From: Psococerastis gibbosa
Taxonomy: Eukaryota > Arthropoda > Insecta > Psocodea > Psocidae
Length of the DNA: 64,000 nt
NCBI GenBank assembly: GCA_963971405.1
Contig: OZ020489.1
Location: forward strand, 32,335,047-32,399,046
Reading direction: 5' to 3'
Shown: piece after piece, positions 4,583 to 56,667 of the stretch
Layout of the letters: each line of letters begins with the position of its first letter
How positions within the stretch are numbered: position 1 is the first letter of the stretch
Translations under genes and position numbers: made by a program
The notes under the pieces: generated by a model
Databases searched by the model: none
What the model was told of the DNA's origin: nothing
Seen by the model: the letters and a program-made list of their open reading frames with translations, nothing else

Positions 4583-5086
4583 GGGGGCCCTGATAGCCCA
4601 GGGTAGATAATTTTTTTAAGACATTAAATTAGAGTAGAATGAAACCCATTGGAAATGGAAGATAATATGACAGACATTAAAGGAAAAATAAATTACGGGC
4701 GATCTGAGTTCAGGAGGGAGGTAGGGGTGGTTTTTAAGGGTGAAATAAGGTACATCTTCATTTCCGACAACTACAAATCCTATGAAAAAACGTCAAATAA
4801 CAAAAAGGTAGGTAATAAGAAGATGTACAACTTTAGTGACTACACTTTTTTCACATAACCTCAAGTTTTATGAGAAAAATGCCAAATACCAAGTTTTGGT
4901 TTTTTATTTTTAACTTTCACCAAAAAAAAAATTTTTACGTGAAATTTGGTGAAAATTTACCGTTTTACGTTCTAAATACACTGTAATTTTTTTGATTTAA
5001 AATATTATTTTTTTTTATACTAAGTTTGACTATATATGGAAAAAGCATCATTAAATTTCAATCGAAAAATCTCACGTCAAAACGTC

Positions 5087-5122
<36 letters not shown>

Positions 5123-6004
5123 GGCTTTTTGTTCGTTGAAATCTCTTCTTTCCGATGGTATAAAAACAATATACACTACTGTGAAAATTTTTCTTAAATA
5201 ATGCAAAATATAGTAGCTTACCTAGGCCCTATATTTATATGTGTCAATCAGCTCTAAAATAAAAATAGTAATATTTTCGTTATTAACTATTATGTTTAAC
5301 GTTACATAACCTAAAATAAATGAAATCGAATGATATTTTAGTTCAATATTAGATGAGAATTATGAAATGAATGAGAATTTCGTTTTTTGCATTTATTAAG
5401 AAAATTTTGCACAGTAGTGTATATTGTTTTTTATACCATCGGAAAGTAGAGATTTCAACAAACAAAAAGCCTACCTTATTTTTTTTTTAAATTTTGACGT
5501 GAGATTTTTCGATTGAAAATTAGGATGGTTTTTCCATATATAGTAAAAATTAGTTGGAAAAAATTTATATTTTAATTCAGAAAAATTATTGTATTTAGAA
5601 CATAAAACGGTAAGTTTTCACCAAATTTCACGTAATAATTTTTTTTTTTTGTGAAAGTTAACAATAAAAAACCAAAACCTTAGTTTTTGGCATTTTCCTC
5701 ATAAAACATGGGGTTATGTGAAAAAAGTGTAGTCACTAAAGTTTTAGATCTTCTTATTACCTTCCTTTTTGCTACTTGTCGTTTTTCAATAGGATTTGTA
5801 GTTTTGTCGGAAATGAAGATGTAACGTATTTCACCCTTAAAAACCACCCTTACCTCTCTCCCGAACTCAGATCGCCCGTAATTTATTTTTCCTTTAATGC
5901 CTGTCATATTATCTTACATTTCCAATGGGTTTTATTCCACTATAATTTAATGTATTTTTTCACCATTTTTCGAGGATCTACCCTGGGCTATGAGGCCTGG
6001 GCCT
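4583..6004. mobile_element. 1.4-kb foldback element with about 600-bp inverted arms
   Basis: The left arm (about 4588-5210) and right arm (about 5395-5999) are inverted copies. TAGCCCAGGGTAGAT at 4593 matches ATCTACCCTGGGCTA near 5976, and the pairing continues in to ACTACTGTG at 5176 against CACAGTAGTG at 5410. A roughly 180-bp AT-rich loop separates them. Both arms keep a similar open frame (4649-4858 plus; 5907-5680 minus) sharing KGKINYGRSEF and VFKGEIRYIFISD. No transposase is seen. A 28-bp poly-A run (5092-5119) interrupts the left arm. No target-site duplication was identified. Foldback or long-TIR MITE is the best description. Confidence 0.75.
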
Positions 6005-9019: not shown

Positions 9020-9401
9020 AATTTTATATGTGCCTAAAAAGTTATGAAATGTTGGAGAAGCATTGGATCATTATAATGCGCAGCGTATCTCCGGCAGAAA
9101 GGTCTTGTAGGGTTAAAGATCCGTAAAAATGAAAAGGGATCGAAAAAGAGAGAAAAAAGCGCTTCATCTTCCTGGGAGTCTCCCCAATTATTCTCTAAAT
9201 AGTGATTCAAATTATCATAGCATTAAAAAGTTTCGGGAGTGCTACCTGGAATGAGGATGAATACATTTAAGGAATATGGATTCTTATGAAATGGGCGGCT
9301 GGGAATCTATGCGATATGAAAATTCTTCCTTTTTTTTGCAGTTTTCCGTTTTTTTTAAAGAATTTTTTCATTTCTTTTCCTACTTACGTCTTGATATTAA
9401 A

Positions 9402-9791
9402 GAGTGTACAGGCCGTAGGAAATTGGCAGCCCGAAATTTAATACTTTTTATTTTTTATTTAATTAACCAAGCATGTTATTAAAGATTTGGCCCATCAAAG
9501 TTGTAGATGACTACTTCATGCATCATATTATAAGACATTTTTAAATTTCGACATTGTAGTTTTTTCATAAACAAGCAAATATTTTATAAACAATAACTTT
9601 TCACGTATGATCGATTTTATAAAAAAACTACAATTTCAAAAACTAAAAACACCTTATTATGCTTTTATGATGCATGAAGTAATCTTCAACAACTTTGATG
9701 AACCAAATCTTTAATAACATGCTTAGTTAATTAAATAATTATAAAAAAGTATTAAATTTCCGGCTGCCAATTTCCTACGGGCTGTACACTC
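9402..9791. mobile_element. TTAA-type foldback MITE, copy 1
   Basis: A 390-bp near-perfect foldback. It begins GAGTGTACAGGCCGTAGGAA and ends with the inverse, and the two arms of about 190 bp meet at a short AT-rich centre. TTAA lies directly right of the element; the left flank reads TTAA plus one A. Related copies are at 17554-17936 and 56277-56667. There is no coding capacity. TTAA targets are used by piggyBac and some Kolobok-type transposases, but the mobilising enzyme is unknown. Confidence 0.85.
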
Positions 9792-9867
9792 TTAAACCTA
9801 TAATAGCTTAAGTCTTAGGCCTGGTACACATGGACGACTCTCGCAGACTCGCTTTGTCGAGTGTCGA

Positions 9868-16858: not shown

Positions 16859-17553
16859 GTAGCAACCGTAAAATTTGCGCCATGTTGTACGGATTGGACA
16901 GCAATAGGTTAGCAAAACAATGCCTATGTGTGGATTCTTAAAGGAAAAGGGGAAGTAAGAGATTTTAGGAAAAGTTGGAACTCTTATCCCCAATATTTCA
17001 AAATAGTTTGTGTTGGCTGAGCTTGCTCATCAAGTACTTTCTGTCCAAACTTTGAAATTTAGTAAGAAGTTTAAGATGTCTGTCCCTTAAAGCTCTAGCT
17101 TCATTTATTATAGAGCTATCTTTTTTTTTGGGGGGGGGGGCAACTTCCAAGTTCCAATCGTTGACCTTTCCTGCGAATTTTGACAGTTTTTACCTATTCT
17201 GCCTGCTACACTATACCCCAGTTAATAGAGAGGTGAATTATGAATGCGATGGTGGCCTTTCGGATCCAGTCGGAAGTTTCCGTAACGGCAGCAATTTTTC
17301 TCTCTCTCTGGATGCGCTTTATTTATATTAATCGTTGTCTAATTTTTTCAGGTTTGGGTAAATGCTGCTGTCGTTCATAGTTGCTATTTTTCTTACCCCT
17401 CAAATCAAAAGATCTTCTACCTGGCTTCAGGCCTGAACCTGTTACGAGTATACTTTTAATTAAGCCTACAGGGTTTTTAGTACCTTTAGTGCTTTACCTA
17501 CAGTCGAAAGAGGGCGGAATGGAGCTCCCCCGCCAGTTATGGTCTACCCTTAA

Positions 17554-17936
17554 GAGTGTACAGCCCGTAGGAAATTGGCAGCGCGAAATTTAACACTTTT
17601 TATTTTTTATTTAATTAACTAAGCATGTTATTAAAGATTTGGCTCATCAAAGTTGTAGAAGACTACTTCATGCATCATATAATAAGGTATTTTTAGTTTT
17701 CGAAATTGTATTTTTTTTTTAAATCGATAATACGTGAAAATTTATTGTTTATAAAATATTTGCATGTTTATGAAAAAACTACAATTTCGAAAACTAAAAA
17801 TACCTTATTATATGATGCATGAAGTAGTCTTCTACAACTTTGATGAGCCAAATCTTTAATAACATGCTTAGTTAATTAAATAAAAAATAAAAAGTGTTAA
17901 ATTTCGCGCTGCCAATTTCCTACGGGCTGTACACTC
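17554..17936. mobile_element. TTAA-type foldback MITE, copy 2 (best preserved)
   Basis: A 383-bp foldback beginning GAGTGTACAGCCCGTAGGAA, flanked by TTAA on both sides (17550-17553 and 17937-17940). The arms (about 185 bp) are nearly identical inverted copies down to the central AT stretch. The exact TTAA duplication makes this the clearest family member. Confidence 0.9.
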
Positions 17937-17955
17937 TTAACTGTAATTTTTTTAT

Positions 17956-19189: not shown

Positions 19190-19955
19190 CGATACTCCGC
19201 AAGGTGTATGGACCAGTGCAAAATCAGGGAGAGTGGGAGGGACAGAGAGAGTGGCTTACTTTTTACTTTCTCGTGTCCAGGCGAACATCCCAAAATCGGG
19301 TGAAGTCGTAGGCAGCACTGTTGGCCTGCCATAGGTCATCCCTCGTGCATTGGACCGGGCATAGGCTGCACTGGAACAGGTGGTCCATATCCTGCCTCTG
19401 ACCACACGAGCACATGGTGTTGCTTTCGTCTGTCTGGCCCCATCTCGCCCTATTGGTTTTCACAGGGGCTGCGCCGGAGCGGAGTTGGTTCAGCACCGCC
19501 CACGTTCTCCATTTAAAGTGGATCCCGGTGGTGCTGACGGGCGCGGGTGGGTACCAGGTTGGAGGTTCCACGGTAACATGGCTGAGGAATGTTCGCCTGG
19601 ACACGAGAAAGTAAAGTAATGTAAGAGAGAGTGGTGTATCTGTAGAAATGACGAGCTCTACACTATATCCCGAGAACCTGCGATAGTAGCCGAAATCAAG
19701 AGAGCCCGCATCAGGTGGCTAGGGCACGTGGAACGAATGCCAGACCATAGGGCAACAAGAGCAGCCTTACACAAGGTGCCCCAAGGGAGAATACCAATGG
19801 GACGACCACGGATGCCATGGCTGGACGATGTCGAGGTGGATCCGGCGATCCATGGCGTCAATGACTGGCGAAGAAGTGTGCAGGACCGCGCAGGCTGGGG
19901 CGATGTGGCAAAGCAGGCCAAGGCCGCACGGGCCGTAGTGCCAAGGAGTAACTAA
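19190..19955 (+). pseudogene. RTE-like LINE C-terminal fragment, split by a TIR element
   Basis: The frame reads ILRKVYGPVQNQGEWEGQRE up to 19254. After the insertion it resumes at 19635 with CICRNDELYTISREP, AEIKRARIRWLGHVERMPDH, GRPRMPWLDDV and DWRRSVQDRAGW, ending at the stop 19953-19955. These are consecutive blocks of a LINE ORF2 C-terminus. Removing the element 19255-19625 plus one 9-bp duplication joins both parts in the same frame, so the split is due to that later insertion. The reverse-transcriptase core is absent. Confidence 0.85.
19255..19625 (-). mobile_element. 371-bp TIR element containing an inverted LINE fragment
   Basis: It is flanked by the 9-bp repeat AGAGAGTGG (19246-19254 and 19626-19634). 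Its ends are inverted repeats of about 37 bp sharing TTTCTCGTGTCCAGGCGAAC. The interior (minus, 19604-19263) is open for 113 codons and reads RTFLSHV, RTWAVLNQLRSGAAPVKTNR and CSCGQRQDMDHLFQCSLCP. This is a LINE C-terminal tail of the type also at 39357-39545. Nine-base duplications with long inverted ends recall Mutator-like elements, which can capture host sequence. A relative with only one end is at 35334-35490. Confidence 0.8.
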
Positions 19956-21095
19956 GTATGGGATAACTATAGTACCATAAAAAATTAAAATACATACCCT
20001 ATATGTCTTCTACAACTTGAGCCAACCAATCTTTTATAACTTTCTTTGCAAAATAAACAATAAGTACGTTCCATATCTTCTTAACTAAAATACCAGAAGC
20101 CCGAACGCACATCACGCCACATGGCTAAGCCCAGCCCTCAACACTCTGGTAGAAAATAGTATGTTGATTTTGAGAGTCAAAATTACCATACCGTTTTGTA
20201 AGCGAAATAGTTTACAATTCTAGGTTTTAGTCCTTCATGACTGAACAATATTGCAATGGCAAGCTGATTTGATACATGGCTGTCTTAGCAGCAATTTACT
20301 GCAGATGGTTACAAAATGTTGAATGTTTCCCAGCTGATGCCTAGGAGCAATCCATCACAATTGTCTCCAATTTGGTAAGTTCGAAAATTAATATAAGATC
20401 CGTGGCATTATCAGTCTGGAATAATCTTCTTTCTTATCTATTATTACTGTTGCATGACTATGAGCCTTGGGGTAAAAAACACCTATCATCATCTTTTAAA
20501 TGGAAACATTAATTATTTTTAATATTTTGTATTTTTTTAAAGAACTGTTTGATCTATTATGAAGTGAACTTGTACTTTCCTCGACATGCGAAAATCTTTT
20601 CCCATAAATATATCGTCCCTTTCTCCAGCATTACACTGTTCGACGAAACTTAGTTTTCGAAAAAAAAAGAAAAAAAAATCTGGATTGTACATCAGAAAAT
20701 GATATTTTATAAACAATTTTAGCCTTATCATTTTCTCTTAGAAACTTTTTTGATTATTAAGTTTTCGCTGAATCTGTTACATTAAAGCACCTCTGTGAAA
20801 TTCTGCGATGGTGGGGAATGTTCATCCAGAGGTTTTTGGCTTAGTTTATGCTAACTGTTAGCAATTGAATTACCAACTATTACCGACTGTCATAACCGTT
20901 ATGGGGTGTCTTTCCAGTTGTAAATATACCCTCTAACATGTCATCTATCGCAGGATCAGGTGTAATCGTATTAGCAAACATGGTTCAATCAATTAATATA
21001 ATATAATTAATATAATAAACACTCCCCATTAGTAGTAAATATGGTGTCCGACATAGTCCGAATGCGACAAATACCCAAATGTTAATTAATACTCG
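19956..21095. other. No gene seen
   Basis: AT-rich, no protein or repeat match found within the window. A short tandem ATTAATATA pattern lies near 20992-21015. Confidence 0.4.
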
Positions 21096-35333: not shown

Positions 35334-35490
35334 GACACTTTACTTTTTCGTGTCCATGCGAACGTCCCAGAACCGGTTGAAGTTGTAGGCAGCGCTGTTG
35401 GCCTTAGGCTGGTCATAAGCTGTACTGGAACCAGTGGTCTGCCTCTGACCACACGAGCACTGAGTGTTGTCTGCGTCTATCTGAAGGCAA
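35334..35490 (-). mobile_element. Truncated relative of the 19.3-kb TIR element
   Basis: It begins ACTTTACTTTTTCGTGTCCA, then GCGAACGTCCCAGAACCGG and TGAAGTTGTAGGCAGCGCTG, paralleling 19255 onward. It is collinear through CCTCTGACCACACGAGCAC and then breaks off before the second inverted end. Confidence 0.75.
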
Positions 35491-56270: not shown

Positions 56271-56276
56271 CGGTAA

Positions 56277-56667
56277 GAGTGTACGTTCCGTAGGAAATTG
56301 GCAGCCCAAATTTAATACTTCTTACTTTTTATTTAAATAACTAAGCAAGTTATTAAAATATTGCTTCATTTATGTTGTTGAAGACTACTTTATGCATCAT
56401 ATAATAGGGTATTTTTAATTTTTTTTTTTGTGTAGTTTTTACATGGCATTCATTTGTACGCAAAATTTTAGCCTTGAATCATTTGTATGATTTTTTTCAA
56501 AAAAAATTGAAAATACCCTGTTATATGATGCATGAAGTCTTCTGCAACGTAAATAAGCCAAATATATAATATATATTAATATCTTACTTTTTTGATAAAA
56601 TACAATATGAGAAGTCTGTAAAAACAACGGATTTTGGGGTGCCTATTCCCTAATGGAGCGTACACGC
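56277..56667. mobile_element. TTAA-type foldback MITE, copy 3
   Basis: 391 bp, beginning GAGTGTACGTTCCGTAGGAA; the right end is its inverse with changes. TTAA follows on the right and GTAA precedes on the left. More diverged than copies 1 and 2, so older. Confidence 0.75.

Follow-up and report, generated by a model that had tools for sequence, protein, structure and literature searches.

A 371-bp insert at 19255-19625 of the 64,000-nucleotide window (the whole stretch of DNA analyzed here) looks like a small DNA transposon and is very probably one recent, faulty LINE insertion, made by target priming, in which both nicked strands primed in the LINE tail. Both of its "terminal inverted repeats" are simply the 3′ terminus that the inserted LINE normally has, made up of last codons, stop codon, and GTAA-type tail. 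The inverted repeats are seen because two copies of this 3′ end face each other, not because the insert has transposon ends.

The inverted ends and the exact 9-bp target duplication given in the initial annotation were both confirmed in the sequence. The duplication, AGAGAGTGG, lies at 19246-19254 on the left and 19626-19634 on the right, and is likewise exact at 10 and 11 bp (19244-19254 and 19624-19634 in the 11-bp reading); all three lengths can be read because two bases are assignable to either tail or target. An inverted-repeat search placed the arms at 19262-19291 and 19586-19615, with 30 nt that are 97% complementary. The arms are more exactly 19255-19288 (34 nt) on the left and 19589-19625 (37 nt) on the right, identical over 27 nt, beyond which their short tails differ. 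These 27 nt are also the longest exact inverted match in the element, compared with at most 14 nt in 100 order-1 Markov resamplings of it. The single mismatch within the 30-nt arms sits at 19589, the internal join, and stems from the antisense piece.

The insert comprises two pieces of LINE that overlap by 1 nt. The antisense piece (19255-19589, minus strand, 335 nt) starts in the LINE tail at 19255, with its coding stop at 19263-19265; its first 34 nt, the left arm, consist of the 26 nt up to the stop and an 8-nt tail. The sense piece, which is the right arm (19589-19625, plus strand, 37 nt), also ends in a tail, with its stop at 19612-19614 and the tail at 19615-19625. An open antisense frame had been described as running into both inverted ends. 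It does represent the LINE C-terminus, and it continues through the right arm into the host as a frame of 151 aa; the right-arm and host stretch of this frame is partly chance, and the true LINE coding sequence stops near 19589.

The relationship between the element and its relatives was examined by a genome search with the element (409 Mb, 68 contigs), which returned 223 candidates, of which 40 were scored and fetched. Among these 40, the element alone matched over its full length (1-371), and the many copies with shared ends that, according to the initial annotation, would have supported a capture family did not appear. In the 39 other scored copies, the one-piece match reached at most position 339 of 371, at 92-99% identity, and 30 of them also match the right arm (332-371), with their own 3′ end and on the opposite strand. 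These 3′ ends read TTCGCCTGGACACGAAAAAGTAA or near it, followed by short GTAA or AGTAA repeats and then by unrelated flank. The LINE 3′ end with its GTAA/AGTAA tail was recognizable in all 39, with L032 diverged, and this LINE tail is what forms the CTTAC/GTAAG tips of the putative transposon. The suspicion that the ends might themselves come from LINE sequence was therefore right. A second, inverted LINE piece was present at just one of the 40 scored loci, that of the element itself, over a search span covering approximately the last 1-1.4 kb of the LINE. The same window also holds an older, 5′-truncated relative of the LINE 3′ end (35339-35483, minus strand), where the left-arm sequence is the single 3′ end and there is no second arm.

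The family is an ordinary LINE, with a 3′ end at its own tail, variable 5′ truncation, short duplications, and a reverse transcriptase. Its copies start at varying 5′ points, ranging from within the query to over 1 kb upstream of it. Of 38 copies, 17 have direct repeats of 8-14 bp close to their two ends (some slightly off the ends), versus 23 of 1406 mismatched flank pairings; the count left out the element and L032, which does not carry the search motif. The remaining 21 of the 38 showed no direct repeat of at least 8 bp. One longer copy, L004, has a 472-aa open frame with the same C-terminus that contains RVT_1 (reverse transcriptase, E 3.5e-27), which bears out the initial view of the antisense interior as a LINE C-terminal tail. 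Compared on its own with curated families and solved structures, the LINE tail gave only zf-RVT at E 0.051, below Pfam's cut-off. Pattern searches for relatives of the tail gave 2 matches in viral_contigs and 14 in genome_contigs, collections that may both omit the window's own genome, and none was confirmed.

The 3′-terminal motif GGACACGARAAAGTAA with a GTAA-type tail had 639 genome-wide matches within one mismatch, against 12 for a reversed-pattern control. At 28 loci (L041-L070 without L045 and L046), it ended two unlinked repeat groups of 15 and 7 loci, with 6 loci single. The motif forms the last codons in the group of the inserted LINE and mostly follows the stop codons in the other group, and it may be a 3′ signal common to several LINE lineages. 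No tRNA genes were found in 17 loci with the terminal motif. Among 92 one-mismatch places (C1 and the start of C2; 100 of the 639 matches listed), there was no inverted pair of LINE 3′ ends less than 20 kb apart, and the only pair within that distance was in the same orientation. At L056:1428-1853, three LINE 3′ ends follow in a row with 168-bp spacing, as if the tail had become a short tandem array.

We then compared the internal join and the individual bases of both pieces with the other copies. Twenty-four other copies were inspected across the inner limit: ahead of TCAGCC or a variant of it, 20 have AAGTTTCC, 2 have nearly this sequence, and 2 (L015 and L021) differ. On the LINE strand, the element has GCGAACATTCC at this point. 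Therefore, the sense piece starts and the antisense piece ends at 19589, where 1 nt fits both pieces and there is no filler. At 334 of its 335 sites, the antisense piece agrees with the base most common among the 39 other copies. The one exception is a G on the LINE strand (19270, minus strand), at a site where all 39 others carry A, and the same G occurs in the sense piece (19607, plus strand). Judged from these sequence comparisons, the insertion is most likely young and both pieces most likely derive from one source copy. Neither an exact 16-mer nor a tolerant pattern search of the assembly revealed a source copy carrying the private G; these searches cover the two patterns in this assembly, and copies altered outside the patterns or missing from the assembly escape them. 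The exact 16-mer with the private G occurred at six further loci, of which five did not match the query and one did so at 70% identity, and the tolerant pattern keeping the G added one further locus, at 79% over 102 nt.

The insert lies in a second repeat, which continues to its right (19635-19956, plus strand) and has further copies genome-wide. As initially claimed, removal of the insert with one duplication restores the host frame and leaves a single open frame across the host. A search with the host repeat gave 1541 candidates, of which 39 others were scored and 24 of these aligned across the site. The uninterrupted target, AGAGAGAGTGG[C/T]GTATC, was present in 9 of the 24, and in two of these (L072 and L094) the match to the host, by our reading of the alignment, extends to the left side as well. 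The 109-aa end of the host repeat had no match in Pfam or NCBIfam. The claim of an insertion into another LINE thus holds as far as the insert sits in another repeat; that repeat has a LINE-like look and may be a LINE. We also considered whether the 18 bp to the left of the insert, marked by a 12-nt direct repeat (19225/19243), could be part of the insertion and rejected this, because other host-repeat copies carry the same stretch. Elsewhere, at G000:C15:4909044-4909700 (part of L079), two extra partial host-repeat copies (query 2-156) precede a longer one, in a row and about 170 bp apart.

Taken as a target-primed event, the insertion would have proceeded with each nicked target strand serving as a primer for reverse transcription that started in the 3′ tail of the LINE RNA. 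One strand would have given the 37-nt sense cDNA and the other the 335-nt antisense cDNA. The free cDNA ends would presumably have been joined through the 1-nt overlap, and gap repair would have produced the 9-11 bp duplication. The order of nicking and priming is conjectural, as is whether one RNA was copied (tail-primed twin priming) or two (dual priming). The shared private base is compatible with a single RNA and with two RNAs from the same source, and speaks for these. The tails after the stop, 8 nt on the left and 11 nt on the right, are not collinear, and favor either two RNAs or slippage in the tail; because they differ, two copies of one RNA tail would need slippage. A fuller version, in which this is a natural case of non-L1 tail-to-tail double priming whose private base marks one source, possibly a single RNA altered by editing or by an error in transcription, is put forward tentatively, as a possibility we would not call probable. 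Several observations count against priming from both strands in the tail: the microhomology at the join is only 1 nt, the tails are unequal, the source of the private G was not found in the searches above, the event was seen in only 1 of 40 loci, and 21 of 38 other copies were without a direct repeat of at least 8 bp.

In Mutator-like capture elements of the Pack-MULE kind, foreign sequence is enclosed by inverted ends and flanked by a 9-bp duplication; the insert is like them in its inverted ends and, where its duplication is read as 9 bp, in that feature too. The initial annotation had likened the insert to Mutator-like capture between DNA-transposon ends, and had named beforehand ordinary LINE sequence at the ends, shared by every copy, as a finding that should overturn this comparison; the 39 other scored copies yielded that finding. 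A Mutator-like or other DNA transposon, or a MITE, with 9-bp duplications that had taken up part of a LINE inside its terminal inverted repeats would explain the inverted ends and the exact 9-bp duplication, but each end consists of the 3′ terminus of the LINE itself, with coding sequence as well as tail. Unlike in the Pack-MULE kind, no family with shared ends was found, and no second full-length copy occurred among the 40 scored of 223 candidates. The duplication is also readable as 11 bp, and the repeats of other LINE copies span 8-14 bp. We therefore discard the capture reading as having almost no chance of being correct.

The remaining alternatives accept that both ends are LINE. Two LINE 3′ ends with unlike tails would be expected had an antisense copy inserted first and a 37-nt sense copy then landed exactly at its 5′ end. 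Such a pair of separate insertions is improbable, as there is a single duplication pair with none at the inner join, and a base absent from 39 of 39 other copies is common to both pieces. Alternatively, an ordinary antisense LINE insertion could have acquired its right arm afterwards, if repair copied its left end in inverted form, and the identity of the arms over 27 nt with the private G in both would agree with this. The right arm, however, has its own, different LINE tail abutting the duplication, which is unexpected for a copied arm, and we rate this course of events as more improbable still. Double priming in the tail is the reading that we retain.

Tail-primed double priming is uncommon among LINE insertions but has been described before, for primate L1. 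Meyer et al. (2010) proposed dual priming for 39 primate L1 loci, beside a tail-primed variant of twin priming; in their account, twin priming with short non-inverted parts was the most probable model and the models were indistinguishable (PMC2837659). Double tail priming could not be separated there because the short sides were homopolymers (PMC2837659). The insert in the window resembles these primate L1 variants in its truncated opposed pieces and one duplication, in fitting a single event, and in that both nicks may have primed in the tail. It is unlike the loci described by Meyer et al., in which the short side is homopolymer tail only (PMC2837659): its own short side includes 26 nt of LINE sequence other than tail, and this LINE has a tail unlike that of L1. 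For LINEs besides L1, the open-access literature searched yielded no tail-to-tail case.

Two opposed LINE pieces in one duplication pair are described as the mark of twin priming, which in L1 (Ostertag and Kazazian 2001, as cited) involves an antisense cDNA primed inside the LINE (PMC12016303, PMC2912911). The window's insert has in common with L1 twin priming that a single pair of target duplications encloses two opposed LINE pieces, and sense and antisense L1 cDNAs are reported to be able to overlap (PMC12016303, PMC2912911). It differs in that its antisense piece starts in the tail and not inside the LINE; both cDNAs begin in the tail, as in dual priming. Because the antisense cDNA starts in the tail, the entire sense piece is also contained in the antisense piece. 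In cell assays with L1, ZfL2-1, and Nimb-2_DR, duplication length depends on the LINE, with a peak for Nimb-2_DR at ~12 bp, and the inversions described in that report, ascribed to twin priming, came from human L1 in human cells and otherwise from one Nimb-2_DR insert (PMC4245944). Unlike those inversions, the present insert is natural and comes from a different LINE. Inversions are carried by 18.4% of human germline L1 insertions (PMC12016303), compared with an inverted piece at 1 of 40 loci in the LINE family here.

The locus offers a readable example of double tail priming, and the distinctive non-poly(A) 3′ end makes this a good family for counting double-priming events. It also illustrates that a LINE insertion can pass for a small DNA transposon, complete with inverted ends and a clean 9-bp duplication, which is a trap for automatic repeat annotation. 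If the proposed origin is true, LINE 3′ ends flank the insert on both sides, and a transcript of either strand could therefore end in a LINE tail and template further moves.

Finally, we also note two further inverted structures in the window. A long hairpin repeat at 17545-17945, with 179-nt arms that are 97% complementary and 43 nt apart, has two relatives at 9397-9796 and 56274-56445, with ends resembling AAGAGTGTACAG; this is probably a foldback or MITE-type family. A large inverted repeat at 4618-5956 has 153-nt arms (4618-4770 and 5804-5956) at 93%, with more paired segments inside.
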